IMG/VR virus record: IMGVR_UViG_3300019751_000007
Location: 1 to 29,901 of that record
Direction: 5' to 3' (one strand)
DNA from: a virus
Length of the DNA stretch: 29,901 nt
The notes below the pieces were generated by a model. That model had not been told where the DNA came from and searched no databases. It saw nothing but the letters and a program-made list of their open reading frames with translations. The position numbers were made by a program, and so were the translations under genes. This document shows, piece after piece, positions 2,785 to 29,272 of the stretch (its first letter is position 1; the number at the start of each line of letters is the position of its first letter).

Positions 2785-2929
2785 TATAATTATGGTCTGC
2801 CTGATTATATTATTCTATTCAAGTTGTGTCAGCTACGCTGAACACCCTATTGACACTTGTCCACATCCCGATGGCTACTCTTGTCCACTCGATGGTTCAC
2901 CATGTCCTTTTTGTGGAGGTGTAAAATGA
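2759..2929 (+). CDS. Tiny Cys-rich putative lipoprotein, 56 aa
   Basis: ATG 2759 lies inside the end of the 42-residue membrane-protein gene, and the stop forms an ATGA overlap with the next gene. The product has a hydrophobic N-terminal segment (residues 4-20, ILIILNIIMVCLIILFY) ending in SSC at Cys23, a plausible but imperfect lipobox. The rest is a short exported tail with four Cys-Pro or Cys-X-Gly turns (TCPHPDG, SCPLDG, PCPFCGG). A mature lipoprotein of about 34 residues with five Cys after the lipid-bearing one could be disulfide- or metal-bound. Possible roles are superinfection exclusion or envelope tethering, both inference. Overlapping placement supports it as real; similarity is unknown. 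Confidence 0.5.
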   Translation: MTKILIILNIIMVCLIILFYSSCVSYAEHPIDTCPHPDGYSCPLDGSPCPFCGGVK

Positions 2930-3120
2930 GAGGAGGAGCTAGAAAGTACACGGGTAGAAAACCATTACCTGAAGAGGAAAGAAGGGTACCATTTAATTGT
3001 ATGGTCACCCCTGAAACTAAGGAGTTTCTTGTCAAACGGAGTGAGGATAGAAAAACTTCTCTCGGTATGATATTGGATAATATGGTAGAGGGAATAATGA
3101 AAGCCCTTAAATATAAATAG
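2926..3120 (+). CDS. Ribbon-helix-helix DNA-binding regulator, 64 aa
   Basis: The start at ATG 2926 (ATGA overlap, GGAGGTG just upstream at 2915-2921) is preferred over the in-frame codon at 2857, which would overlap the lipoprotein gene. A basic N-terminal arm (RGGARKYTGRKP) is followed by a beta-strand-like VPFNCMV, helix A (TPETKEFLVKRSEDRKTS) and helix B (SLGMILDNMVEGIMKAL). This is the classic MetJ/Arc-type fold length and layout. Such proteins bind DNA as dimers, with the strand in the major groove. It is the last plus-strand gene before the bidirectional terminator, and a long inverted repeat 80-130 nt downstream could be its operator (inference). Confidence 0.75.
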   Translation: MRGGARKYTGRKPLPEEERRVPFNCMVTPETKEFLVKRSEDRKTSLGMILDNMVEGIMKALKYK

Positions 3121-3139
3121 TTTCCTACAGACTGATACA

Positions 3140-3171
3140 AAAAGAGAGGGGTCTAAAAGCCCCTCTTTTTT
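3140..3171. terminator. Bidirectional rho-independent terminator between convergent units
   Basis: The G/C-rich arms AGAGGGG (3145-3151) and CCCCTCT (3160-3166) enclose an 8-nt loop. They are flanked by an A tract (3139-3143) and a T tract (3166-3172), so each strand carries a U-run after the stem. The structure sits 20 nt after the last plus-strand stop and 80 nt after the last minus-strand stop, exactly where two converging transcripts should end. Confidence 0.88.
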
Positions 3172-3190
3172 TATCTTTCGGAATTGGTTG

Positions 3191-3248
3191 TTGACATTGA
3201 TCAGAATCTTTATATAACTTGCCATATGGGCAAGTTAATATTTCTGAT
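3191..3248 (+). promoter_or_regulatory. Promoter-like element overlapped by a long inverted repeat
   Basis: A perfect TTGACA (3191-3196) is followed after 16 nt by TATAAC (3213-3218). The -10 overlaps an inverted repeat TAACTTGCC (3215-3223) / GGCAAGTTA (3229-3237). An outer pair ATCAGAA (3200-3206) / TTCTGAT (3242-3248) extends it into a long imperfect hairpin. If active, the promoter would fire rightward into the 3' end of the opposing helicase gene and give an antisense transcript. Alternatively the repeat is a protein-binding or RNA-stability element at the 3' end of the minus-strand operon. Confidence 0.4.
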
Positions 3249-3251
3249 GAA

Positions 3252-4388
3252 TTATTTCTTTGTGTAAGTGGTAGCTCTTCCCTTTGTCTCATAAAAGAAA
3301 TACTTTTCTACCTCATCTTTATCTTTCAAAGCCTCATCGAAATCGTAACGGGTCCACTTTAATCTCTCGGCTATGATAAATAAATCAGATCGGGACATCG
3401 GTCTATCATTACAAGATAATGAAAGGTTCTCAATTGTTTTGGCGGTGGAAGCTTTAGCCTCGTCCAAATCTTTGAACGGTTGGCCGGGCTTGTGTAGCTT
3501 ATCAGGATCAAGGTCAGGTTCATGGACCATATGGAGGAGATCAAGATCAAACCTGACTACGAACGGGTCAATCGGTCTATCATTACGGACCTCTACATCT
3601 ACGGTAAGGGCGTGTTTTACTTCATGCCTAGTACAAGATAAGACGGCATCAGGATCACGGGCAAATGATCCCGCTCCCGCACATCTATCTATCGGATCAC
3701 GGCTTGCCATGTCACCCTTTGCAAAGTGGTGGGCAAATACCACGGCGGAAGTCTTGGCAAACTTTTCAATCTTTAGGAGGAGAGAGGTCACCTCCCCGTT
3801 CGCATTCTCGTCCCCTCCCGCATTCATCTTATAGAATGGGTCAATGATTATTAACTTGTACTCCTTAAACTTTTCCCATGATTGCATAACTTGTAGGAGG
3901 ACGGTAGGATTATACTCAACGCCTCGTAGATGCCACACATGGAGGTTGTCAGTAGCACCCAAGCCCTTAGCTTCAGCCACACTTCTCACCCTCTTCTTGA
4001 AGAAGGAAGGTATAAATTCTAGGTCAATATATAGTACCTTAGATCGCTCTGTAGTTAGCCCCATCCAAGGTACGCCATGAGCTACGCTCAACCCGAGATC
4101 AATTAACTGCCAAGTCTTAAATGATTTGGAACCACCACCTAAGATCATCTTCCCGCCAACGGGGAGGAGTCCTTGTATACAATAATCAGGTAGTCGTATT
4201 GTTACCGAAGGATCACCCCAATTTTGGAACGACTCGGGCTCGGGTATGGCTTGAAATTCAGGAACCTCATCCTCGATTTGCAAGGTAGACTCTTTGGTAA
4301 TAACCTTAGTCTCCTCCTTGTCTCTTGGTATGTCGTCCCAACTTTCTTCTTGTAGTGCTTTGACAAATGGTTGTAGTGGATCAGTCAT
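3252..4388 (-). CDS. AAA_25 / RepA-like RecA-fold ATPase, probable replicative helicase (378 aa)
   Basis: The core has a Walker A variant GGSKSFKT (residues 85-92; Phe90 replaces the usual Gly before Lys91), Walker B-like strands VLYIDLEF (119-126) and LIIIDPFYKM (169-178), the motif FAHHFAKGD (208-216), and GAGSFARDPDAVL. These are typical of the RecA-family ATPases (AAA_25) that act as hexameric helicases beside small primases in phages and plasmids. The C-terminal ~90 residues (MSRSDLFIIAERLKWTRYDFDEAL) look like a winged-helix domain. The start overlaps the dNMP kinase stop as TAATG and has an AAGGAG site. It would unwind the phage replication fork together with the primase-like gene two places upstream. 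It is the promoter-distal gene of the minus-strand unit. Confidence 0.8.
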   Translation of the reverse strand: MTDPLQPFVKALQEESWDDIPRDKEETKVITKESTLQIEDEVPEFQAIPEPESFQNWGDPSVTIRLPDYCIQGLLPVGGKMILGGGSKSFKTWQLIDLGLSVAHGVPWMGLTTERSKVLYIDLEFIPSFFKKRVRSVAEAKGLGATDNLHVWHLRGVEYNPTVLLQVMQSWEKFKEYKLIIIDPFYKMNAGGDENANGEVTSLLLKIEKFAKTSAVVFAHHFAKGDMASRDPIDRCAGAGSFARDPDAVLSCTRHEVKHALTVDVEVRNDRPIDPFVVRFDLDLLHMVHEPDLDPDKLHKPGQPFKDLDEAKASTAKTIENLSLSCNDRPMSRSDLFIIAERLKWTRYDFDEALKDKDEVEKYFFYETKGRATTYTKK

Positions 4389-9211: not shown

Positions 9212-9667
9212 TTATGATTGGGTTAGTGCATAATTAAGAATCATATATGCATCGCTATTTTTTTGTGTTACTTTTGCGGGAAAAGGAAACAATCTCTTGG
9301 CCTCCTCCCAAATTAACTTCTTCCTGATTTTGTATTCTTTACCTTTTATTCCTACTATATTTGATTGCCATTCTTGGGGCCTAACTAAATGTAGCTTGAA
9401 GCCCTTTGCTTGAACGCAACCTTTGATAAAACCGAAGTTCTCTCCGAGAACAAAGCCGGTACTTTCAGGTCGTGACCTACCCGTTGTCTTGGGTGGATGC
9501 TCTAAGTACCATGTAACTTTATGGTCAACCGAACAGATTTTTATAAACTCTGCCAACTCTAAGAAGTCAGCATCGCCGTCCCAATTCCAAGTTTCATACT
9601 TACCGTCAGGCATCCTTGCAACGGTAGCACCTCCAACTCCGGGGTCTGTTGAGATAATAAGTTCCAT
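9212..9667 (-). CDS. RuvC-like Holliday-junction resolvase (151 aa)
   Basis: The protein has the RNase H-fold resolvase acidic residues: IISTDPGVGGATVA (Asp8 in the first strand), WYLEHPP (Glu55 after a strand), and TQKNSDAYMILNYAL (Asp139 in the last helix). The length is that of RuvC-type enzymes, which cut four-way junctions during phage recombination or before packaging. RSRPEST...GENFGFIKG and the basic KGKEYKIRKKLIWEEAKRLFP resemble the DNA-binding part. It lies 39 nt after the giant virion gene and 1 nt before the SSB-like gene, so it begins the replication/recombination block. No clear ribosome site precedes ATG 9667. Confidence 0.82.
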   Translation of the reverse strand: MELIISTDPGVGGATVARMPDGKYETWNWDGDADFLELAEFIKICSVDHKVTWYLEHPPKTTGRSRPESTGFVLGENFGFIKGCVQAKGFKLHLVRPQEWQSNIVGIKGKEYKIRKKLIWEEAKRLFPFPAKVTQKNSDAYMILNYALTQS

Positions 9668-9706
9668 GTTTAAGATCAGTCGATTAGACTTCTCTCAGAA
9701 ACTTTT

Positions 9707-12700
9707 TTACTTGTCAAATTCTTTTTTTATTTCGGCAATTCTTAGCCTAACTTCTTCACGGCTCATGTCTGCAACTCTGTACCGAGCAAACTTGGTAGCT
9801 GACGCACTTAGTTTTTGTGAGATAGCTTGCATATTTTCAGGGCTCTCTTTTAATATTTGAGATTCAAAATCTTCTCCGACAACTATTCTAGGTTGACCGG
9901 TTTCAGGGTCGGTGCCTCTATCAAACTCATCTAAAAGTTGTCGGTAAAATCTACCTTTGATTGACCTGAATACATATAAATCTTGGGCACGGTGCAAGGT
10001 GGAAAGTTCTTCATCCTCTTCTTTACCCCGTATGACTTGACCGTCATTGGCTTTAATAGGAATTATTTTTTTCTGAACCAACTTTTCTAATAACGGGTCC
10101 ATCTTTGCATCACGAAAAACTCTATCATATGTTCTTTCAAAATAATTTCCTGAATAAAGTTCAACCGGTTTACCAAATACATCTAAGTTAGGTGCTCCCA
10201 TTTGACGGATGAAAGGTACGGACGGTAAGATGTAGTGCCCAAAAAAAGAATCCATTTGACCCTCATCGTATTTTTCATTGGACATTGCCTTATCTATTTG
10301 TTGAAACAAATTAGGTATGGCAAATTGACCGGGCCCTTGTTGGACCAACCGCTTAAAAGTGCTTACACTTTTGTCATCCGCTTTGGCTATATCTACGAAG
10401 TCAGATACCCCCTTGAAGAAAGCTTGGTCAAAGATAAGTCTACCAAACGCTAGTGTCCCCGCTAACATTATGCCGGGCATGGTAGCGATATCATCACCGT
10501 ATTTTATATGATCTTTAATACCACCTAAAAATGCTAAGAAGCCACCGAAAGGAGTTTCTTTATATCCAATTTCTTTACCGGCTATCCTTACCGTGTAGGG
10601 ACGGTATCCGCCTTCCATTAAAGTTTTCTTCTTTTGGTAATTCTTAGGACCACCCGCAGTAACATCGAACAATCTATTTTCTTCGTCTTCTTCCTCGCTA
10701 AAAAACAAGTAAGCTAACACACCGGTCATAGCTACGCCAATGGCATGGCGAGTGTGTAGGTCCGCTACCATCTCATCACTAGCGGGTTTGGCGTTAGCTC
10801 TTACACGGTTGGTACCTCTTCGATGCATTTCTGCACGGACCCCACCGAGTATTGGAGTATAGTCAAACACCATGTTTTGCACATTGGCCACCACCCGTAT
10901 GAATGGAATAAAGAACTGACCAACCGCCGATAACATTTGCTTTGCGGGCGGGACTTCTTGACCCGCTACTACTGCGGGGTAGTTAGTCTGAGCTACGGCA
11001 GATGCCAAGGCACCTATAAAACCTTCAGGCACATTCTGAAAAGTGGACCGTAATCCGTACTGCTCGGATTCTTCTCTTAGCTCGGGGTTTCTACGGGACT
11101 CTAATATTTCATTGACCCTACGCTTATGATTTAATCCCGACAATCCTTCGGCACTTGCCTTTGCTTCAGCGGTTGAAACATTTTGCTGATCGTAAGCTAA
11201 TGCTTCGTCAATATAACGGCGAAGTTCTTTACCCTTGAGTCCCCGTCTCTTACCTTCCATGCCCGCCAACATGGTTGCCTTACCTTCAATGTTACTAAAC
11301 CTAAAGGCTAGGTCCATAGCTGACATAAAACGGTGTACATATTTTAAATAATTATATGGGTTGAATTTACCGCCGGCTAAAGTTTTTCTTTCCAAGATAG
11401 GATCAAACCCAAACTTATCCATCTCGTAACCGGTTCGTCCTCTTCCCGTTACCATGACTGAACCGGCCTCTTGCAAACCTTTCTTCAGGCCAATCAATTG
11501 ATTCATCGCAATCTTGTAGCCAATGTTCTTATCAAACTTTGTACGGATGAAATGAGTACCTACCATAGGTATAGCCGTTGAAAGGTTACCTGATAAGTTA
11601 ACTACTTGAGTACTGAAACCTGACACTAGGTTAGCTACCCTGATCGCCATCATTAAAGCTACTGCACCGTCTCCCGCCTTATTTTGTATAAGGTTCATCA
11701 GGTCTATAATTTTATTATTCTGTTGGAAACCTTCAGGTGCGTTCTCAATCTCTTGTGCAATCCTCTTGGCTTCGTCTAAGAATTTTTTATCAACGGTAGG
11801 AATATTTAGTTTCTTTGCAATTGCATCATACAAATCGGCTCTATCAAAGCCACCAAGGTTTGCCATCTCAATCACAAACTGCTCAGTATTTTTTGTAACC
11901 TTCTTTAACTTCGGTGCAAGAGTAGTCTTTTTAAATTTGTCTAGTTGTTTCTTAGCTTCGCCCGCTACCATTCTATTGAACTCACGGTTCATTTGTATGG
12001 CTAACTTATTCGCAATGTCTTTTGGTAAATCTAAATCTGATATCAAAGCTTCGTTAATTTTAGTTTTAATATCAGACTTATCTAAGAAACTTTTCTTTGC
12101 TATATCTTGTAGCTTTAAATTAAACTTATCCATCCTTTCTTTGATGGTAGATTGAACTAGCTTACCACTTGGGTCCCTTGGCATCTCGCCGAAGAATGAT
12201 TCAAGTTCTTCTATTTGTGCATCAGTTAAACTTTCATCGCTTAGAGTTCTCTTAGCTAGATCGTGCCAAACATCCGCATACTTCTCGGAGTTTAACAGAG
12301 CATCCCTAAGTATATCGGACCGACTTCGTTCACGGGTGGGTCCTCCTCCCGATTCAATTTCTTTTCTAGCTTTTATTTCTGCAACCAACTCGTTAACAAA
12401 CTGAGCTAATGGTGTACCCGTAGGTTTGGATGACTCTGACTCACTCTTGTTAAGAGCGGACATTATTTGAGCGTGTAACTTATTGACACTCTCTTTACGG
12501 TAAGCACCCCATAAAGACGGTGCGTATTTTTCTTCGATTAGTTTAATTAAGTTAGGGCTTTTCTTTCTAAAGAACTCTAACGACATTGCATCAAAGCCGG
12601 CTTGTTGGGCTACTTTAATTAAATCCTCTAAGACACTAGTTACCTTTTGCATTTCAGCATCTTTAGCATCTACCCGAGCTTGGGTAGCTTTTCTAATCTG

Positions 12701-15700
12701 CCTCTTAGCCAACCTTATTCTACCCGCAGTACTTAAAGAATTAAACGCTTGGAAAATAGATACGCCCCTACCTAATTCTCTTCCGTACTCCGCTAGTTTT
12801 TGAGCTAAGTCAATTGCTATATCATCTAATCTGTTGGTTTCAATTATTCCATCCAACTCTAATTGACCTTTGGTTTTTTTGTCTGCGAGTTTCTTACGCA
12901 AAGCATCTGCTCTAAGGCCAAGTCTTTTTATTAGAATCTGCCCGACTAAAACTTTTTGTTCGGGAGTTAAATCAGTACGGCTAAAGTTACCTAACTCTAG
13001 TGCCATCTGTTCATAGGATAATTTTTTTCTTTCACGGAACCAAGGTCGCAAAGACTCAAGCACTTCACGGTGACCTCTTACTCCGTATAAAATATCTAAG
13101 TTGTTTCTTATTTGTTCAGGTAACTCTTCGTCTTGTTGTAACCTAACTAAAAATTTACTTTCACCTAAGATAGGATCATCTGAATTTTCTTTCTTACTAA
13201 AATAAACTAGACTAGCGGGGTCTTGCCCCGTTGGTTCTATCGGTCTTGGGGCTACCGCATATCCCGCCTTACTAGATGCATTAAATGTTTGGGCGATCTG
13301 ATCTCTACCCATCCTTGGGAGCTTGTGTAGATCAGGGAACATAACTTCGTGAGGTTCTATTCTTTCACGAATCCTATCCCACAAGGTCCATTGAGCGGGG
13401 AACACGGGTATGCCTAACTCTTCCGCTTTTCTTTCGTTCACCTCAAGAGCTTTCTTATAAGCCTCCGACATTATGTTAAATGTTTTAGGCTCCTCTATAA
13501 ATTTAAGTAGTCTAGCTTCTTCCCGTACACTTGGGTTTACTCCATCTTTAGTACGGTAAGCGGGTTTATCTGAGGTCATTGTTGCAAACACCGCTTTGGA
13601 TAAAGCATCGGTACCCTTACCTTGCTCACCCCGATTGACTTGAGACATTACCCCGTCAAGAGTTTTTACTTCCCTCAAAGTTGGGTCTAATATTTTTTCT
13701 TGTTTTTCTTTCCAAGCCTTTTCTACTTTTTGTTTTGCCGTTTCGGTCTTTGCTTTTTTAAGGCTCTTGCGATAATCAGTCCTAGCTTTCCTTGCTTCTT
13801 TTAGTTCTTTATTAAAAGCTGAAACAATAACCGTAGAAAATCTTTTCTTTAAATCTTTGTCAGCTAATAAGTCTTTAGTAAAAGCTTTAGCCATATGCCT
13901 ATCGATAGCCGATATCATAGCATTGTATGGGTCTTGCCAAACGCCACCAAAGGTAGCGGTCTTTGTCCCGAAACCACCGACTTGTGTAGATACTTTGTCC
14001 ACATAGTCAGACCAACTTTCGTCAGCTTTCTTTATAAAGAAGTCAGGGTTCTTGACATACAACCTTGCAAAGTTTGCGAGTAATGAAAAGTCCTGAGTTA
14101 AGCCTATACCTATGCCACCTTCTTTACCTCTCGCACCTATGTCGAAAGCTTTCTTGACGGTCTTATTCCAATCTGATCTTGCCTTACTTAGTTTATCTTT
14201 TTCTTTCTGTAGTTTTATAGCTTCTGCTAAGGCTTTATTAGCGGGACCAATCTTCAATCTAAAATGAGCTTCGCCGTCAAACGCATCGTCAATTTCTAAA
14301 TCTTCTTGTTTTACTTTAAGTGCAATGGCGTTCTTACCATACCCTTCCGCCATACCTTTGTTCTTTGAAGATACAAAAATTTCCTTTGTATTTTCTTTAG
14401 ATATAAAACCTTGTTTGTTTATTTCTTTGGGGTCTACATTAGTTCTATGGTATACCGTTATAGTACCATCGGGATTAACTTTAATAGGTTTGTTTTTATT
14501 ATCCTTAAATATAGGTTTTGTTTTTACTACCGGTGGCTTGGGTAAGTCAGGTGGATAGGAGTCTGCCATGTCGGCAAGCCTTTGAATGTCATCCATGCTC
14601 TGACTAAATATTCGGGCCACCCCATATTCGTTGGGTAGAAGAGGTGCATTAGGTGAAAGGAACCCAAAAGCTAAACGGTTAAATTGTTGGACTTTATCGA
14701 CACTTTTAGGCGTAAGGCTTTCTGATAATTTCTTAGTGATCTTTGCGTGGGTCTGTTCACCTACATTATTTATTCCCGGTTGGTTGTTCTTAATCCATAA
14801 CATATCGTAGTAAGTAAACTTACCATCTAGCCCGCCGGGCATCTTGTAGGTCTTACCCGTTTCAGGGTCCTTAACTTCTACCAAGGGTGTCAGCGGACCT
14901 AAGTTTTCTACGCCGTAGATGTCGCCTACTTCTTTAAAATCTTCAGGGCTCCACTCCATTGGTGCACGGCCTTTGTAAAAAAGATTACCTCTTTCGTCTT
15001 TGACTATACCTTGTTGTAACTCTTTAGACTTTTTACTTAATAATATCTCGCTATTCTTTTTCTTGATAGCACCCATAACTTTAGGGTCCTTATGAACTAG
15101 AACGGCAGAGCCACTTATAGATCGGTTACTAGGCACCTTATTGACGGTAAAGCCTATTCCCAAAACTTGAGATACATATTGTTGTAACTCATCAGAACTA
15201 AAACCTTTTTGAAATGTTTCTCTCCCTTCGCTCTTAGCTATAACAGAGTTCTCTTCGGGTCCGGGTCTAGCGGTCTTAGCTCCCATTACCGCTGACACAT
15301 CTCTTGCTTGGATTACTGCTCTTCCGCCCACCTTTAAAACCCGTCCAATATCTTGTACAACTTTGTCCCGTTGACCTAGATCATTGCGAACTACATTCAA
15401 TACATTGGGTGAAATGATTTTATCGTAACTCTCGTCAGGGATTTCTTTTGACTGCTTATATTTAGGTTCACCAAAAAGTATGGGTTTGTAGTCTTCGTCC
15501 ATACTAGTAACAAAATTTTCTCTAGCGAAAGGCTCGAACGAGTCGGCCCCTATTGCTAAACTACCGTAACCTAAACCCGCCCCGTAGTCTAAAGTGTTAC
15601 CTCCCTTTTGTAATTCATCTAAATACTGCTTCGACTTAATGTAAGTAGGAATAGTATTTTTTCGTTGGGTAGCTTGAGCGTTTTCTTCAGGAGGTAAGGC

Positions 15701-18178
15701 TGAAGCTTCGTCCGCCCTTTGTTCGAGGATATCTAAATCTCGATTTACTTGGGGCCGGTCCATTTCTAAGCTTGCTAATGTCTGAGCGTATTGACCTCTA
15801 TCTTTCTTACTAAATAGAACATCATCTAAACTAGGGTCCTCCTCACTAAGATCGATCCTCCGATCCATGTCTTCGGATTCAGCAAAAGCTAACGCCTCAT
15901 CGAAGTCGGAGGTGCTAGTTTCAACCATGTCGTAAGCATTGTCTAAAGGTTGAAAGGCCCACACAAACTTGCGTGGAAAACCGTCTTTATCTAACGCCTC
16001 ACTATTTGAATCGGGGTCTTCGTATTTAGTAAATCCAAAATACTTTGGCTTTCTACTAGTTCTCTCCCCGGTGTCCGGATCATATATTGCATAGTCTACT
16101 ACCGAATGGAACTCTTGGTGTAAGGCATGAGTCTCGTCAAGCTTTACTAACTGACCGGGTTTACCCGCAGTTAAAGCTTCGGCTTCGGCCTCAAAGTCTT
16201 TTGGTATTCCGTACTTCCTGCCGGTCCCTTGGCTTGAGGAAAAATTTTTAACTGAAGCAGACTCCCTCACAAAATCCGAAAATCGACTAGCTAAAATATT
16301 ATCCACCTCGTCATCTTGTGCATCAGTTGAGCGAGAGGTTATTTGTTGGTTAACCTTATTTAAGGTTGGAGTTTTAATTAACTGATTTGCGAGACTAACT
16401 GCTTTTAATATTTGTCTATCGGTGTCAGGAGTAGGTTGAATTTTGTTACCCGTAACTTTATGGAAAGCATCTATAACAGACTGCTTCAAACCACCTTGTG
16501 AGTTTGGTTTCTCTGACACTCGGGCAACTATTTCTTTACCTAAAGTTATCTGATTAAAATTTGAATCGTTTGAGTAGTCTTTTATTATACGCCTACCCAA
16601 GGGTGTGTTAACATATTGCCTACCTACCTGATCATAAAAGGCATCTTGTAAGGGACCCGAAACTGCTTCGGTACCAAAGTGACCAATAGCTTCATGCCTT
16701 AAAACTCTTTGCACATCGCTTACAGAATTTAGTTCCGATGCAACTAGGATAACTTTCTTGTCCCCCTCCCGTCCTACATATAAGCCCTCTATACCGTCAC
16801 CCGTTTTGAACTTACCGTCTAGGCTAGGCTCAATACTACCTAGTCCCTCTGCGTTCTCTACTATGTGTATGGGTAAGTTATGAGAGATAGCCTTGGCTTC
16901 TTTTGCGATAGCCTTCTGAACATCTGCCACACTCATTCCACCGTCACTTACGCCCACGCTAACCGACTTTACCGTGTTAGAATTTTCAGATATTATAATT
17001 TGTTCAACCGCTTGCTCGTAATCTTTTAAAAATTTAGTTGCTTGCTCGTCCCCCTCAAGGCTTTCCTTCTTAGCCCTTGTTAGTACTTCTTTACGGAAAG
17101 CTTCTACATCTTTTATTAGAGCAGACTCCCCCTCACCTACGCCAAGAGATAGTGTGTTAGCACCCGCACCAAGTATGGTACCGATTGCAAAGTCTCTTAA
17201 TGTACCCTCTGTTATTTTTTGTTCGGGGTCTATGTTGCGTTGGATCATCCAATTCTGTAGACCCGAGCTTACCGCTTCACTACTACCCTCTGCTAAACTA
17301 CCCCATGTGTAAGTGAGTAACTTGTCCTTAGTGCTTCCCGCAGTACCACGAAACAACTTACCCGCACTACCCATAAAAATTTTATCTAGTGCAATCTCGG
17401 GTATAGCGGTCCACAAATTACCGTAAGCATCTGACTTAGCCTCTTCGTCAATCTTACTTTGCATGGCACCTATCTCTTCATCGGATAATAGAAGTGGGTT
17501 CTCCACTCCCTCCATGGCTTTTTCTAACCTAGCACTCTTAGATGCTTGGTAGTTACCCTCAAAGTTTTGCCCAACTACTTGTGCGGTAAGAGCTAGGAAA
17601 CCCGCTTTAGGTCCACCTAATAAAGTGGAACCACTTACCATTGAAATCTGACCGGTCAAACCTCCCGCACCTTGGGCCAAGTCACCTACAAAAGTTTGCT
17701 CTAATTCTTCTTTCAGATACGCACCGTAAAAATCACTCTGCTCATCTGCCATCTTCTGTAGATAATTCAAACGGCGTTGCCTATCGGGTCTATTTAATTG
17801 ATCTTGAATCTTATCCGCTTCCTCATCTTGACCCATCATCCGTAGGTAACCCGCTTCTGAGTTTAAGAATGATCCTTCCAAACCCGTCATAAACTTACGG
17901 CCGGTTTGGTACACATCCCGTTCACGGTTTACTTCTCTAGCTACGAACCTTTCTTTCTCTTCCCCGTCTAAATATTTATCAGCGGTCTGTAATCTTTCTA
18001 ATTCCCTATCTTCCGTATAAGCGGGTTCAAATAAGATATCACGGTTAGCCATTCCCTTTCCATCAGGAGAGGGAAGCTCATACGCAAACGCTTGTAAGGG
18101 TAAGGTACCACCGTCTCTTGAATCAGGAAACAAGTCGGCGGGGTTTGTATTATCAGCAAACCGTTTTATTTCACTCAT
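9707..18178 (-). CDS. Giant polyvalent internal-virion/ejection protein (2823 aa)
   Basis: The single uninterrupted frame has several regions. (a) Residues 160-350 are Gly/Ala-rich hydrophobic stretches typical of membrane-penetrating ejection proteins. (b) RVLRHEAIGHFG at 491-502 is a zincin HExxH (His495, Glu496, His500). (c) A class I SAM-methyltransferase-like domain spans about 840-1030 (LDYGAGLGYG 863-872, IGRVLKVGGRAVIQ 944-957). (d) An ADP-ribosyltransferase-like segment spans 1238-1310 (YHRT 1243, FVSS 1268, Glu1303). (e) GGFGTKTATF...AIDRHM at 1401-1429 resembles a helix-hairpin-helix glycosylase core. (f) Long charged coiled-coil stretches fill 1450-2170. (g) A C-terminal part (2170-2600) has several hydrophobic segments. 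It is the last of the ejection-type genes, corresponding in order to T7 gp16. The probable role is to travel with the DNA into the host and act on membrane, proteins and nucleic acid (inference). No RNA polymerase motifs were seen. Confidence 0.82.
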   Translation of the reverse strand: MSEIKRFADNTNPADLFPDSRDGGTLPLQAFAYELPSPDGKGMANRDILFEPAYTEDRELERLQTADKYLDGEEKERFVAREVNRERDVYQTGRKFMTGLEGSFLNSEAGYLRMMGQDEEADKIQDQLNRPDRQRRLNYLQKMADEQSDFYGAYLKEELEQTFVGDLAQGAGGLTGQISMVSGSTLLGGPKAGFLALTAQVVGQNFEGNYQASKSARLEKAMEGVENPLLLSDEEIGAMQSKIDEEAKSDAYGNLWTAIPEIALDKIFMGSAGKLFRGTAGSTKDKLLTYTWGSLAEGSSEAVSSGLQNWMIQRNIDPEQKITEGTLRDFAIGTILGAGANTLSLGVGEGESALIKDVEAFRKEVLTRAKKESLEGDEQATKFLKDYEQAVEQIIISENSNTVKSVSVGVSDGGMSVADVQKAIAKEAKAISHNLPIHIVENAEGLGSIEPSLDGKFKTGDGIEGLYVGREGDKKVILVASELNSVSDVQRVLRHEAIGHFGTEAVSGPLQDAFYDQVGRQYVNTPLGRRIIKDYSNDSNFNQITLGKEIVARVSEKPNSQGGLKQSVIDAFHKVTGNKIQPTPDTDRQILKAVSLANQLIKTPTLNKVNQQITSRSTDAQDDEVDNILASRFSDFVRESASVKNFSSSQGTGRKYGIPKDFEAEAEALTAGKPGQLVKLDETHALHQEFHSVVDYAIYDPDTGERTSRKPKYFGFTKYEDPDSNSEALDKDGFPRKFVWAFQPLDNAYDMVETSTSDFDEALAFAESEDMDRRIDLSEEDPSLDDVLFSKKDRGQYAQTLASLEMDRPQVNRDLDILEQRADEASALPPEENAQATQRKNTIPTYIKSKQYLDELQKGGNTLDYGAGLGYGSLAIGADSFEPFARENFVTSMDEDYKPILFGEPKYKQSKEIPDESYDKIISPNVLNVVRNDLGQRDKVVQDIGRVLKVGGRAVIQARDVSAVMGAKTARPGPEENSVIAKSEGRETFQKGFSSDELQQYVSQVLGIGFTVNKVPSNRSISGSAVLVHKDPKVMGAIKKKNSEILLSKKSKELQQGIVKDERGNLFYKGRAPMEWSPEDFKEVGDIYGVENLGPLTPLVEVKDPETGKTYKMPGGLDGKFTYYDMLWIKNNQPGINNVGEQTHAKITKKLSESLTPKSVDKVQQFNRLAFGFLSPNAPLLPNEYGVARIFSQSMDDIQRLADMADSYPPDLPKPPVVKTKPIFKDNKNKPIKVNPDGTITVYHRTNVDPKEINKQGFISKENTKEIFVSSKNKGMAEGYGKNAIALKVKQEDLEIDDAFDGEAHFRLKIGPANKALAEAIKLQKEKDKLSKARSDWNKTVKKAFDIGARGKEGGIGIGLTQDFSLLANFARLYVKNPDFFIKKADESWSDYVDKVSTQVGGFGTKTATFGGVWQDPYNAMISAIDRHMAKAFTKDLLADKDLKKRFSTVIVSAFNKELKEARKARTDYRKSLKKAKTETAKQKVEKAWKEKQEKILDPTLREVKTLDGVMSQVNRGEQGKGTDALSKAVFATMTSDKPAYRTKDGVNPSVREEARLLKFIEEPKTFNIMSEAYKKALEVNERKAEELGIPVFPAQWTLWDRIRERIEPHEVMFPDLHKLPRMGRDQIAQTFNASSKAGYAVAPRPIEPTGQDPASLVYFSKKENSDDPILGESKFLVRLQQDEELPEQIRNNLDILYGVRGHREVLESLRPWFRERKKLSYEQMALELGNFSRTDLTPEQKVLVGQILIKRLGLRADALRKKLADKKTKGQLELDGIIETNRLDDIAIDLAQKLAEYGRELGRGVSIFQAFNSLSTAGRIRLAKRQIRKATQARVDAKDAEMQKVTSVLEDLIKVAQQAGFDAMSLEFFRKKSPNLIKLIEEKYAPSLWGAYRKESVNKLHAQIMSALNKSESESSKPTGTPLAQFVNELVAEIKARKEIESGGGPTRERSRSDILRDALLNSEKYADVWHDLAKRTLSDESLTDAQIEELESFFGEMPRDPSGKLVQSTIKERMDKFNLKLQDIAKKSFLDKSDIKTKINEALISDLDLPKDIANKLAIQMNREFNRMVAGEAKKQLDKFKKTTLAPKLKKVTKNTEQFVIEMANLGGFDRADLYDAIAKKLNIPTVDKKFLDEAKRIAQEIENAPEGFQQNNKIIDLMNLIQNKAGDGAVALMMAIRVANLVSGFSTQVVNLSGNLSTAIPMVGTHFIRTKFDKNIGYKIAMNQLIGLKKGLQEAGSVMVTGRGRTGYEMDKFGFDPILERKTLAGGKFNPYNYLKYVHRFMSAMDLAFRFSNIEGKATMLAGMEGKRRGLKGKELRRYIDEALAYDQQNVSTAEAKASAEGLSGLNHKRRVNEILESRRNPELREESEQYGLRSTFQNVPEGFIGALASAVAQTNYPAVVAGQEVPPAKQMLSAVGQFFIPFIRVVANVQNMVFDYTPILGGVRAEMHRRGTNRVRANAKPASDEMVADLHTRHAIGVAMTGVLAYLFFSEEEDEENRLFDVTAGGPKNYQKKKTLMEGGYRPYTVRIAGKEIGYKETPFGGFLAFLGGIKDHIKYGDDIATMPGIMLAGTLAFGRLIFDQAFFKGVSDFVDIAKADDKSVSTFKRLVQQGPGQFAIPNLFQQIDKAMSNEKYDEGQMDSFFGHYILPSVPFIRQMGAPNLDVFGKPVELYSGNYFERTYDRVFRDAKMDPLLEKLVQKKIIPIKANDGQVIRGKEEDEELSTLHRAQDLYVFRSIKGRFYRQLLDEFDRGTDPETGQPRIVVGEDFESQILKESPENMQAISQKLSASATKFARYRVADMSREEVRLRIAEIKKEFDK

Positions 18179-22012: not shown

Positions 22013-23695
22013 TTACTTATAGGTTTGGATTAAATTTTCGTTTGATTCAATAAACTCAGCCCGACAATGTTTTAGTTTACTGCGACCCGTGCCCTTGAAA
22101 TTATATTGAAGCGAGTTGCCTCGTCTGCCAATAGAAAACCTTTGTATATAACTTTCAACCTCGGGCCTTTCTATTGGTATTGCAAAAGAACCGTCAGGCT
22201 CTTTTAAGTTTACCGTAAGATCAGTTGTACCCGTGCTATCTAAACTCTCGGATTTTATATAACCCCTACGGTAGTTTTTAATTTCTAAATTATCGTTGTC
22301 ATAAGAACGAGTAGATATCTCCCAATTGATGGTTTCACCTGAGTCGGTTTCACCGTCATCAAATTTATATAGGACACCAAATCGGTCCGCTACATATAGT
22401 TGTTCTTGACTATCTACCGTAGTTCTAGCCACCACAAAATCAGATATCCTAAAATTATATTCGTCACGACTTTCCCACGACCCCGTAAGAGTATTGTAGA
22501 TATAACATCTACTAGTTTGATCCGTGGAAAAACTTAGGTAATATCGGTTACGGTAAAAAGCTGAACGGCAATTCCTTTCAGCTAAACTGAAGTCTTCGGA
22601 TAATATTTGATCGTTTATTGGCTTGGATAATGGTTCATTTTGGAGATCGAACCTAGTTAAAACTGATCGGCCGGTAGCTCCGTCAATACCTACATCTATT
22701 AAGAATACTCCGTTGTCAGACAAAAAGAAAATGGCTGACCCTATAGTTTGTATACTATGCCTAGATACACACCCCGAGGATTTACTTATATGAAATATAT
22801 AAGCATCCGTTAACACACCCGTATTCAAACCGCCTATGCCCCATATAGAATTTCTTTTAAATACTACACAAGTAGATTCAGGCACGGGAGTTATACCCGT
22901 TATATTATCTCCGTCCCCCACCCCGATATAAAACTTACCAAAGATATCGTAGTTACTTTCATTTATTATATCAGAAAATTCTATGATATCAGGGGCGGTT
23001 ACAATAGCTAGGCGGTTGCTGACTACCACCCCGAAATCTCCGTTAGGGATATCGGGGTCCACTACAAATTGAGTGGAACTCCCGCCGTCCCATTTTTGTA
23101 CATCTTGCCGTAAAGTAAACTCTAAATTGACGGGAAGTATTGGCCCACTACCGCTAAGTAATATAAACTGATTGTTAAATTGAATGGGCTCTATGTCACC
23201 GCCTACCGTATATGGTTTAGGACTTGGGTTTTCTTTACCTAAGATAAAGTCTAGGGATAAGGGTAATACGGGGTCGGTTAAAAGGCTAGTCTGAAACTCT
23301 TTACTATATAATGTAGAACCGTTCCAAAAGGTAACATCCGATTCTCTTACCATTGCTATTTGATTCTTATCGGACAACCCTATGCCGGGGTATTTAGTCA
23401 CCGCAAAAAAGTCTCCTTGTAACGGATCAGCTACTTCAATCCCACCGCCTTGCTCTAAGTGTATCTCGTTACCTAATTCATCTGTAAGTAAAGCACCACT
23501 ACTAATGTCAACTTGACTACTGTACCCCAAACGGGTTGTTATTATACCGTCATCCATTCTAACATTCTTAGCCTCTGCAACTTCGCCCGGCTTTAGTCGG
23601 TTAGATTGATCTCTGCTATTCATACCGGTAAAAGCAATATCACCCGACTCTACGAGTTGGGTGTCTAGTCTACCGTATTTAGCATACCTAGTCAT
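22013..23695 (-). CDS. Tail nozzle-like protein (T7 gp12 type, 560 aa)
   Basis: The N-terminal region carries the signature often seen at the start of podovirus nozzle/hub proteins: PGEVAEAKNVRMDDGIITTRLGYS (residues 37-60). The body is beta-rich with repeated strand-turn units (GVVVSNRLAIVTAPDIIEFSD, CVVFKRNSIWGIGG, AIFFLSDNGVFLID, YYLSFSTDQTSRCYIYNTLTGSWESRD) that fit a beta-propeller nozzle. The start overlaps the upstream fibre-associated gene by ATGA. This protein would form the end of the short tail through which the ejection proteins and DNA leave. Coverage of the whole fold is inferred from pattern, not from alignment. Confidence 0.72.
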   Translation of the reverse strand: MTRYAKYGRLDTQLVESGDIAFTGMNSRDQSNRLKPGEVAEAKNVRMDDGIITTRLGYSSQVDISSGALLTDELGNEIHLEQGGGIEVADPLQGDFFAVTKYPGIGLSDKNQIAMVRESDVTFWNGSTLYSKEFQTSLLTDPVLPLSLDFILGKENPSPKPYTVGGDIEPIQFNNQFILLSGSGPILPVNLEFTLRQDVQKWDGGSSTQFVVDPDIPNGDFGVVVSNRLAIVTAPDIIEFSDIINESNYDIFGKFYIGVGDGDNITGITPVPESTCVVFKRNSIWGIGGLNTGVLTDAYIFHISKSSGCVSRHSIQTIGSAIFFLSDNGVFLIDVGIDGATGRSVLTRFDLQNEPLSKPINDQILSEDFSLAERNCRSAFYRNRYYLSFSTDQTSRCYIYNTLTGSWESRDEYNFRISDFVVARTTVDSQEQLYVADRFGVLYKFDDGETDSGETINWEISTRSYDNDNLEIKNYRRGYIKSESLDSTGTTDLTVNLKEPDGSFAIPIERPEVESYIQRFSIGRRGNSLQYNFKGTGRSKLKHCRAEFIESNENLIQTYK

Positions 23696-26940: not shown

Positions 26941-27665
26941 AACACTACATTACCCGACCAAGCTTCTTCGTTAGGTGAATTAGATATTTTTATTAAATCA
27001 ATTTTGTGACCTCCTCCATAGTGTACAAAATTAGTATCTTCTTTAGCCATTGGTGGCATACAATGCCAATGCCTAGAGATTAAATCGGGTACTTTATTTA
27101 TCTTATAATTAAGATACCCACAACCGTGCATATCGAAAAATCCAAGTGTGTTTGCTTGAGCCGATATTAAGTCGTCATCAATATATTTAGCGTAAGCTTC
27201 AAAGACTTCTCGTGGATACATAGCCACCCCCGTGCAGAAAAAATAACCACTAGGCACCCTTACATTCAAAGAAGATTCTAAAACTTTTTCTTGATGTTCT
27301 TTTGCCTTCTTTGCATCTATACCGCCGGCTGAGAAATATAAAAGGTCCTCAAATATGTTACCCGCATTTTCACTAATAAGTATATCGCAATCTAAAAATA
27401 AAATTCTTTCGTAGTGAGACTTTGCAAAGTCTTTGAACATCGTAATATTCCTAAGACAAGCAGAGTGATATGGGTTACCTTCATACTCTTCAGGCTCATC
27501 TTTTAATTCTACATAGTCCACCCCGCATCTCTCAGCGTACCTCATTTGACTAGGGACCACAAAATCATTTACCGCTTTATACAAGCTACCGTGCTTAGAC
27601 CATCGTTTGTCTGCACCGACTCCCTCCTTATAAGTGTTTACTACATAGATTGCGTTAGAACTCAT
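26937..27665 (-). CDS. GT8-like glycosyltransferase (242 aa)
   Basis: The start chosen is ATG 27665 (MSSNAIYVVNTY), which overlaps the sulfotransferase stop by 11 nt and puts the first strand right after Met. The frame is open to 27692, so the start is uncertain. The GT-A signature LFLDCDILI carries the metal-binding D-x-D (Asp92, Asp94). HSACLRNITMFKDF and the later FFCTGVAMY fit GT8-type enzymes such as galactosyl- or glycogenin-like transferases. It would transfer a hexose from a nucleotide sugar; the sugar is unknown. Neighbours are a sulfotransferase and another transferase, so it probably helps build one decorated glycan. Confidence 0.72.
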   Translation of the reverse strand: MSSNAIYVVNTYKEGVGADKRWSKHGSLYKAVNDFVVPSQMRYAERCGVDYVELKDEPEEYEGNPYHSACLRNITMFKDFAKSHYERILFLDCDILISENAGNIFEDLLYFSAGGIDAKKAKEHQEKVLESSLNVRVPSGYFFCTGVAMYPREVFEAYAKYIDDDLISAQANTLGFFDMHGCGYLNYKINKVPDLISRHWHCMPPMAKEDTNFVHYGGGHKIDLIKISNSPNEEAWSGNVVL

Positions 27666-28245
27666 AGCCAAATTCTTTAATGTCATCTTCAAAAATTAAC
27701 TCAACTATTCGCTTAGTGCGTTCGTTGTAGTATTCCCTATACGGCTTATGCTTACTCCTATTTTTATGAGGTAACTCAACATTAAAATTATCCTCAAATA
27801 TTTGTATATCTTGCTCAAGCTTGTACACCCTATCTACATAAGATTTACCTCTATGTGTAAGCCACCTTGTTTGGGACCATTTCCATATATCATCGTGGCA
27901 TTGAAGAAGAGAATAAATAACTTCGTTAAAACATCTTTTCTCTATCCCTCTATCTATGTTATAATGATGTTCTGATACTAGCCTAGCCCAAGGGTTCCTA
28001 ACAAAAGTTATCCTTAAATTATGCCAATTGTTTTTAATTCTATCTAAATAACGGGTCGGCTTAAAGTCTTCACGCTCTTTGTATAAATCGAGTTGGGTAG
28101 CGTAGCTACTTCTAAAACTATCGTCTAGTATAGCTGACACGGGCGTATGTCTTTTTTGTGTAGACCCTAGTGCTTCTAGTACACTTTCCCCGCCGGTCTT
28201 AGTTAGATGAATAAATATAACTTTATGCTTTTCTATGTAGATCAT
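27655..28245 (-). CDS. PAPS-dependent sulfotransferase (196 aa)
   Basis: The start is set at ATG 28245 because a perfect AAGGAG lies 7 nt upstream. The in-frame ATG at 28278 would overlap the previous gene. The 5'-phosphosulfate loop is IFIHLTKTGGESV (residues 10-22; Lys16, Gly18, Gly19) and the 3'-phosphate-binding segment is RITFVRNPWARLVSEHHY (78-95; Arg83, Ser91). This is the pattern of carbohydrate sulfotransferases (Sulfotransfer_2 type). PAPS would come from the host. It should add sulfate to a sugar of a glycan made by the surrounding transferases. Finding it in a phage glycan cluster is notable; substrate is inference. Confidence 0.82.
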   Translation of the reverse strand: MIYIEKHKVIFIHLTKTGGESVLEALGSTQKRHTPVSAILDDSFRSSYATQLDLYKEREDFKPTRYLDRIKNNWHNLRITFVRNPWARLVSEHHYNIDRGIEKRCFNEVIYSLLQCHDDIWKWSQTRWLTHRGKSYVDRVYKLEQDIQIFEDNFNVELPHKNRSKHKPYREYYNERTKRIVELIFEDDIKEFGYEF

Positions 28246-28255
28246 GTCATACTCC

Positions 28256-29272
28256 TTAAAGAGAACTATATATTTCACTAGACTCCATGTTTTTTACAAA
28301 CGAAGATAAACTAAACTTAGAGCTTTCCTTGAGTGCTTTTAGATAGTTAGAGGCTTGAGTCAATGTGTTTGCATCTAATAAATAATACACTTCATGTAAG
28401 TCTTGGAAATATAATGGGTAATCGTTACCTAAGTATTCTCTAACTGCGGGATGGTCCTTTACCACAATAGGTACCTCTCGTTGTATACACTCTAGTATAG
28501 TGTTATTTGCACTAGTATCCCATAGGTCTAATAAGACTACAGAGTCGCATATAAACTTATCATACTCTTCATTACTTAAATGATATCTATGCTCGATCTC
28601 TGATAAGGTATACTGCAAATATTTATGCTCAAGTTTTAATCTATCCTCAACATATTCAATCGGTTTACTGCCTTCCGGATAGGGCCATAACTTTACACGG
28701 CTCCAATTGGTTGGAACCTCTACACGGTATATAGAAGTTTGCCTACGGAGCCACCACCCTACACTTACTAATCGATCCATCCTACCCGTCCAAGTAGGGG
28801 TAACTTCATTGGGGTAGGGATGTAGTATGGACTCAAACTTTGTGTTCGGATACAACGCACTCAATCCATCTGCGTGGTATTGAGACATAGTATATATCCC
28901 CTTGCAACTTTTCAGACTCGCCTCAAATAATTTATCACCCCTCCCATCCCAAGCGGGTTTGTACCACTTCGGCATATTGTGTGGGTTATGTATAAAACCT
29001 ACCCACGGTTCTTTAATCGGTATCTTGTTTTCTTTCTCGTTTTTAAATCTGAACCAATCAAATAAACTTTCAATGAATGTTTCACAATAAATGCCATCTA
29101 CATTATGCAAAGGTTGCATCGCCTCTAACACCTTCAGCCAACCGCCTCGATGTGTCTTCAAGGCCGGTTGCTTACCTAGATTTAGTTTCCCCTCTCCATT
29201 CGACTCAGAAAAAACTGCATGGCAGTTACCCCAATCGTCTAGAGTTTCAGTAGTCTTAATTTCCTTTACCAT
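28256..29272 (-). CDS. GT-B-type glycosyltransferase-like protein (338 aa)
   Basis: ATG 29272 (MVKEIKTTETLDDW) is chosen; the frame extends to 29344, but that would lie inside the preceding gene by 89 nt. The C-terminal half has the donor-site pattern of GT-B enzymes: SVGWWLRRQTSIYRV (a strand-turn), VVLLDLWDTSANNTILECIQ (Asn/Glu acidic helix) and VPIVVKDHPAVREYLGNDYPLYF. The N-terminal half contains PWVGFIHNPHNMPKWY and IYTMSQYHADGL, usual for acceptor domains. It lies 10 nt before the sulfotransferase gene. Donor and acceptor are unknown. Confidence 0.68.
   Translation of the reverse strand: MVKEIKTTETLDDWGNCHAVFSESNGEGKLNLGKQPALKTHRGGWLKVLEAMQPLHNVDGIYCETFIESLFDWFRFKNEKENKIPIKEPWVGFIHNPHNMPKWYKPAWDGRGDKLFEASLKSCKGIYTMSQYHADGLSALYPNTKFESILHPYPNEVTPTWTGRMDRLVSVGWWLRRQTSIYRVEVPTNWSRVKLWPYPEGSKPIEYVEDRLKLEHKYLQYTLSEIEHRYHLSNEEYDKFICDSVVLLDLWDTSANNTILECIQREVPIVVKDHPAVREYLGNDYPLYFQDLHEVYYLLDANTLTQASNYLKALKESSKFSLSSFVKNMESSEIYSSL

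Follow-up and report, generated by a model that had tools for sequence, protein, structure and literature searches.

What kind of protein is encoded by a viral gene of 2823 codons, and what might it do when infection begins? The window analysed here is a 29.9-kb fragment recorded from an uncultivated virus. Its minus strand contains an open reading frame that runs without interruption from 18178 to 9707, and stops are frequent throughout this interval on the plus strand. The start codon lies two bases past the stop of the preceding gene. Near full-length alignments were obtained with two collinear single ORFs, L001 (2869 aa) and L010 (2648 aa), on two other IMG/VR contigs of uncultivated phages, L010 being encoded on the 41.65-kb contig G001. 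The length of the ORF is unusual and the window is an uncultivated-virus fragment, which could point to fused or frameshifted ORFs or to misassembly. Since collinear single-chain homologues are present on two independent contigs, assembly fusion and a broken frame are excluded, and we give virtually no credence to an artefact. The single 2823-residue chain proposed in the original prediction, which was made from the sequence alone, is thus borne out. The features of the locus are listed in Table 1.

Table 1. Positions of the features of the giant gene and its upstream neighbours, in window coordinates
Feature	Residues	Position	Strand	Remarks
Giant polyvalent/ejection protein gene (probable), P0001	1-2823	9707..18178	-	2823 codons; homologues L001 2869 aa, L010 2648 aa
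Conserved N-terminal region, Gly-rich at 51-400	1-430	16889..18178	-	N-terminal block 47% and 45% identical to L001 and L010
Zincin-like metallopeptidase candidate	430-610	16349..16891	-	HEAIGH 495-500 (16679-16696), Glu549 (16532-16534)
Slot 1, variable effector slot	620-1047	15038..16321	-	blastp blocks; methyltransferase in window and L010, ART-PolyVal in L001
Linker motif FSKK	789-792	15803..15814	-	L010 homology resumes at 787
Class I SAM methyltransferase, [YF]QKGFxxxEL family	793-1046	15041..15802	-	Family profile
Linker motif LSKK	1047-1050	15029..15040	-	L001 homology resumes at 1048
HhH-GPD DNA-glycosylase-like core (predicted fold)	1051-1659	13202..15028	-	Lys1406 (13961-13963), Asp1426 (13901-13903)
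Slot 2, cassette inside core	1212-1334	14177..14545	-	ART-like by eye only; absent from 11 relatives
Linker motif FSKK	1660-1663	13190..13201	-	Homology to core-only relatives stops here
C-terminal ejection-type module	1975-2680	10139..12256	-	25% identity to MW202801 UOF82117 and L206
Gene directly upstream, probable smaller ejection protein	361 aa	18181..19266	-	Homologues in same place in G001 and L001
Probable second ejection protein gene	529 aa	19269..20858	-	Homologue in same place in G001

The genes on the minus strand are ordered as tail/internal-virion-like genes, the 529-aa gene, the 361-aa gene, the giant gene and then replication genes, which encode a Holliday-junction resolvase, a PD-(D/E)XK exonuclease, a family A DNA polymerase and a primase/helicase-like protein. 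The same order was found on G001, where TerL and the major capsid protein (MCP) are encoded in the upstream part of the block. Family searches with the 529-aa and 361-aa proteins gave no match. Podovirus ejection genes, as in the T7 series gp14-gp15-gp16, are arranged with two smaller genes before the largest. Given the gene order in the window and on G001, the giant gene is the last of the virion block and follows two smaller genes, like podovirus ejection genes. The C-terminal module recurs in a 1121-aa protein (UOF82117) of the complete podovirus genome MW202801, whose gene directly follows a four-helix-bundle gene and precedes an endolysin gene. This common block supports an ejection role at the level of sequence and is no proof of packaging.

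Both ends of the protein had been predicted to be Gly-rich and membrane-prone. Gly content is 11-14% at residues 51-400 and 10.7-12.7% at residues 2151-2350 and 2451-2650, against 7.6% overall, and the hydropathy peaks at these ends are only 1.3-1.5. The Gly enrichment and the membrane-prone character therefore stand, but clear transmembrane helices were not found. Domain content, synteny and the C-terminal block common to another podovirus all support the view that the protein is polyvalent and virion-associated and occupies a gp16-like position, and the gene very probably encodes a short-tailed phage's ejection (internal virion) protein of the polyvalent type.

Two known ejection proteins were compared with it. 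T7 gp16 is also the last and largest protein of a podovirus ejection block, but the giant protein is twice as long and carries extra enzyme-like domains. No lytic transglycosylase domain was recognised in it with Pfam, PHROGs or NCBIfam, and membership in the gp16 family was therefore not accepted. The virion RNA polymerase gp50 of coliphage N4 (PMC12633501) is a giant ejected protein, as the window protein would be, and the two resemble each other in a probable membrane N-terminus, a central enzyme, a zincin-motif domain and a large helical C-terminus. In the window protein, however, the zincin precedes rather than follows the other enzymes, and Pfam, PHROGs and NCBIfam identified no T7-like RNA polymerase domain, for which reason an N4-type virion RNA polymerase was rejected.

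We examined which parts of the chain are constant. Alignment with L001 by blastp gave three blocks, at residues 10-619, 1048-1210 and 1335-2823. Slot 1, between the first two blocks, contains a SAM methyltransferase in the window and in L010, and in L001 it contains ART-PolyVal (PF18760; Pfam E 6.5e-13) followed by other sequence. Slot 2 is a ~120-residue insert within the core, unique to the window and lacking in 11 of 11 aligned relatives. In L018 the core is followed by ART-PolyVal (E 2.2e-14), and in L020 the same methyltransferase as in the window is found at the C-terminus. The swap in slot 1, the window-only insert and these other orders indicate that the domain order is not fixed and that the protein is a chassis with exchangeable cassettes, the chassis carrying a methyltransferase or an ADP-ribosyltransferase as interchangeable effectors. 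The proposal that the domain order defines a distinct takeover system is thus not supported. Residues 620-788 (window 15815-16321), between the zincin block and the methyltransferase, correspond to a shorter, unalignable stretch in L010 and had no relative in the phages searched, and for these reasons may constitute a third cassette.

Three copies of the motif [FYL]S[KR]K are present in the window protein, each at most 2 residues from a block edge (787, 1048 and 1660); the edge at 1660 is where the blastp alignments with L014, L015, L019, L022, L185 and L186 stop. Random placement equalled this coincidence in 0 of 200,000 trials, the edges having been picked after the fact, and the count of three was reached in 11 of 2000 shuffles, a modest excess of a small count. 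The motif is missing from distant relatives. A role as a general phage linker was dropped, as it is absent from the other large methyltransferase proteins examined. Since the motifs coincide with the edges of exchangeable blocks, our hypothesis is that they are protease linkers.

The methyltransferase segment of the window (METHYLTRANSFERASE; residues 793-1046) belongs to a class I family with the motifs TQ..T..TY, LDYGAGLG, NVLNVV and [YF]QKGFxxxEL. The segment alone matched Methyltransf_31 (E 0.0085) and Methyltransf_11 (E 0.017) in Pfam, and the profile made from the family alignment matched solved methyltransferases (E 2.6e-4). Together with the many phage homologues, these matches confirm the predicted SAM-methyltransferase-like domain. 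The family signature was found in at least 453 viral contigs, and among the best 80 of these the methyltransferase was encoded in open frames of at least 500 residues in 64. Among isolated phages, Roseobacter CRP-738 and the Mycobacterium phages Bigswole and Myrna encode it inside large proteins beside portal/capsid genes. Pelagiphage HTVC103P has it, together with a lysozyme domain, in the final large protein of the virion block, and phage LS06-2018-MD07 has it in a protein of ~3100 aa. Members of the family (L025-L104; MJing1 and other phages) are poorly named and mostly reside in large multidomain proteins, at times with SAP, DUF7178, ART-PolyVal or metallopeptidase domains as companions.

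Neither the [NDS]PP[YFW] motif of DNA amino-methyltransferases nor the PC motif of C5 enzymes is present in residues 793-1046, in which motif IV reads NVLNV. Because these DNA-methyltransferase motifs are lacking, the acceptor is more likely RNA, protein or a small molecule than DNA. The methylases described in polyvalent proteins, in contrast, are mostly EcoKI/TaqI-like adenine methyltransferases with NPP(Y/F), fused to helicases (PMC5512222).

The insert in slot 2 had been read as ADP-ribosyltransferase-like. It had no match in Pfam even at E 10, ART-PolyVal (PF18760) included, and no relatives in the viral contigs searched; PDB gave a short match (E 0.025), and a match of residues 1238-1310 to phrog_6170 (E 0.0087) was too weak for use. 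The remaining match was a weak one, to a 116-aa mycobacteriophage protein (P0004; E 0.01) with YHRT...GF...GYG...H in common. The ADP-ribosyltransferase is thus unproven in the window, whereas slot 1 of L001 has a true ART-PolyVal. The 116-aa stand-alone protein gp129 of Mycobacterium phage DyoEdafos (L188:670-1020) resembles the insert in this motif, and its gene adjoins a tRNA-Cys gene and an annotated nuclease.

In the block preceding slot 1, HEAIGH and the downstream Glu549 are invariant in the window protein, L001 and L010. The original prediction had named an HExxH zincin; a conserved metallopeptidase-type motif with a downstream Glu is indeed present, but its spacing is HExxxH, and no HExxH occurs anywhere in the giant protein. 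Profile searches with this block gave no match, and the single match in PDB (E 0.17) lies outside the motif, so the assignment stays at the level of the motif. Metallopeptidases of the HEXXXH type have been described among polyvalent proteins, of which a zincin-like metallopeptidase is the commonest hub domain (PMC5512222), and the window motif fits this class. The polyvalent proteins of Iyer et al. 2017 (PMC5512222) further resemble the window protein in that a single chain combines several enzymatic domains of unrelated types and in their position among virion genes; ART-PolyVal they have in common with L001, not with the window. Polyvalent proteins are recognised by being encoded among virion structural genes and by having at least two biochemically unrelated domains. 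The former was found in the window, on G001 and for the gene neighbours of the core, and the latter in the methyltransferase, by family profile, and the HhH-GPD domain, by structure prediction.

We investigated the core, a conserved module of ~500 residues, by homology searches. At least 109 loci of uncultivated viruses encode it. The bacterial and archaeal genome set yielded no more than three, all of them in MAGs, and four different queries found none among 50,697 records of isolated phages. It had no match to PF00730 or PF22175 even at E 10, PHROGs did not recognise it, and hmmsearch of PDB with core-family profiles gave nothing significant. One uncharacterised protein in a viral structure library carries the whole module (E 2e-22). 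In other phages, the neighbours of the core match portal, terminase, scaffold and capsid families, which links the core to virion genes in general.

Structure prediction had been proposed beforehand as a check on the enzyme-like domains, and for the core it returned an enzyme-type fold, HhH-GPD. A first AlphaFold2 model, of the window core with its insert (12 sequences), had a pLDDT of 58.7 and an empty Foldseek search against PDB, and was discarded. The fold evidence comes from the L010 copy of the core (residues 998-1510), in which the insert is missing, modelled with 49 sequences at pLDDT 86.4 and pTM 0.84. VIA-align superimposed this model on TmOgg (3n0u) with Z 12.8, covering 195 of 208 residues at 3.2 A, and gave lower Z scores for MjOgg (12.7), hOGG1 (9.6), EndoIII (8.0), NTHL1 (7.3) and MutY (6.4). 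The best ten VIA rows were all OGG/EndoIII/NTH/MutY glycosylases (Z 12.8 to 6.2), with unrelated rows at 6.1 or below. The first rank in Foldseek was MjOgg, at probability 0.97 and E 0.2. The helix-hairpin-helix-like segment of the original prediction is thereby confirmed and widened to a whole DNA-glycosylase-like fold.

The hairpin of the core, G(F/L)(G/S)xKT followed by (I/M)DRHM, parallels GVGRKTAN...VDTHV of EndoIII homologues, the spacing from the GxxxKT hairpin to Asp-x-His being 20 residues in the core and 18 in EndoIII. The same hairpin register was picked by hhalign of the core against EndoIII, at a non-significant E of 0.15-0.32. The Lys and Asp (window Lys1406 and Asp1426; model Lys246 and Asp266) are shared by all 49 sequences, as is His268; invariance of the Asp and His of DRHM was partly imposed by the search pattern, whereas the Lys lies outside any search pattern. 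The core is thus predicted to have the HhH-GPD glycosylase fold with Lys and Asp at catalytic positions. Ogg2-type enzymes (TmOgg 3n0u, MjOgg 3knt/3fhf), OGG1 and EndoIII have in common with it the predicted fold over ~195 residues and the GxxxKT...Asp-x-His arrangement. In contrast to them, the core has an N-terminal beta region, a long helical insertion and a C-terminal QWxLWDRIRxRxEPHE motif, lacks a sequence match to their Pfam families and is part of a virion-region protein.

Whether the fold retains its chemistry was weighed on this evidence. The domain could be a DNA-binding or structural module that holds the genome end or anchors the ejection complex, as is suggested by the absence of a detectable sequence relationship to catalytic glycosylases (PF00730, PF22175, hhalign), by the large insertions and an additional, long hairpin of helices (model residues ~280-375), and by its location in a structural protein. 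A scaffold, however, needs none of the Lys, Asp and His that are invariant in 49 diverse sequences, and we regard this loss of chemistry as unlikely. On balance the evidence slightly favours a catalytically active glycosylase. More tentatively, the core may represent a family of HhH-GPD glycosylase/AP lyases that has not been described before and is confined almost entirely to viruses. Encoded within giant ejection proteins or next to the portal gene, these enzymes would be carried in the virion and would process incoming or host DNA at entry along with exchangeable effector cassettes. A layout like that of the core, SP..xxN...PK..xF...VTVD-[TS]-[HW], was observed in DUF7178 (L201:1462-2094, L100:4653-5252) and, by eye, in a stretch at L071:9018-9617. 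No significant link between the core and DUF7178 was found by hhalign; DUF7178 may be another HhH-GPD-like phage family.

These domains could also be decayed passengers of a purely structural ejection protein, analogous to gp16 or N4 gp50. The most conserved parts of the chain include the N- and C-terminal blocks, and neither the zincin nor the ART-like insert has a profile match. Nevertheless, homologues that are ~50% identical have all kept an intact SAM-binding motif, HExxxH and Lys/Asp pair, which makes decay improbable. The reading that best accounts for the whole, and that we consider likely, is a polyvalent ejection protein with a peptidase, an effector slot and an HhH-GPD domain acting on DNA at entry. 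The giant protein would be packaged in the head and exit together with the DNA or ahead of it, and the conserved blocks at its two ends would serve in packaging, in an envelope channel or in both. The HExxxH metallopeptidase would work in the virion or in the new host and may free domains at the [FYL]S[KR]K linkers. The cassette slot would deliver an effector, a SAM methyltransferase of non-DNA type in the window and an ADP-ribosyltransferase in a relative. The HhH-GPD domain, with the Lys and Asp of bifunctional glycosylase/AP lyases, would act on DNA at the entry point, and we favour a role in clearing the incoming genome of bases that are damaged or host-marked. That the incoming genome is its substrate is our best single guess, preferred over attack on host DNA, and itself a doubtful one.

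In the alternative of an anti-host weapon, the protease, methyltransferase, ADP-ribosyltransferase and glycosylase would hit host proteins and the chromosome and cause immediate shutdown. The domain types fit known take-over effectors (T4 Alt and polyvalent ADP-ribosyltransferases; PMC5512222), glycosylases serve as weapons in phage-host conflict (Brig1, PMC11078745), and the cassettes are exchanged rapidly. Against this, a chromosome-damaging glycosylase would also strike phage DNA unless that DNA were modified, and the 29.9-kb fragment has no recognised gene for base modification. We consider a weapon of this kind not very likely. Brig1 and the restriction glycosylases (PMC11078745, PMC10273834) are DNA glycosylases in phage-host conflict, as may be the case here, but they are host defences, whereas the window domain is phage-borne and probably injected.

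Polyvalent and injected giant proteins are known already; the glycosylase-like domain family and the architecture of the window protein were absent from the sources searched. A term search of PMC5512222 found no mention of glycosylases, and searches of the openly available literature turned up no polyvalent or ejection protein described as having a glycosylase domain. The first minutes of an infection are decided by the proteins that a phage injects, most of which remain unread. If the glycosylase-like domain is active, one of the first proteins that the incoming genome meets would be a base-excision enzyme, and the machinery of entry would include base excision, used to mend or unmark that genome or to attack that of the host. 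The conserved Lys1406 and Asp1426 make this idea directly testable.

Several neighbouring genes were also noted. The product of window 27655-28278 (minus strand), which adjoins the virion genes, matched galactose-3-O-sulfotransferase (phrog_3347, E 3.2e-9), and the virion block of MW202801 also houses sugar-modifying genes. A 560-aa protein encoded at window 22013-23695 (minus strand) matched, at residues ~260-465, parts of PHROGs for internal virion protein, amidase and head closure. On G001, an integrase gene (2809-3873; phrog_1, E 1.3e-13) lies directly downstream of the giant gene; its place is taken in L001 by a 346-aa ORF (9588-10628) and in the window by 40 bases (9667-9707). The integrase beside the giant gene may indicate that one lineage is temperate and that the phage of the window is not.
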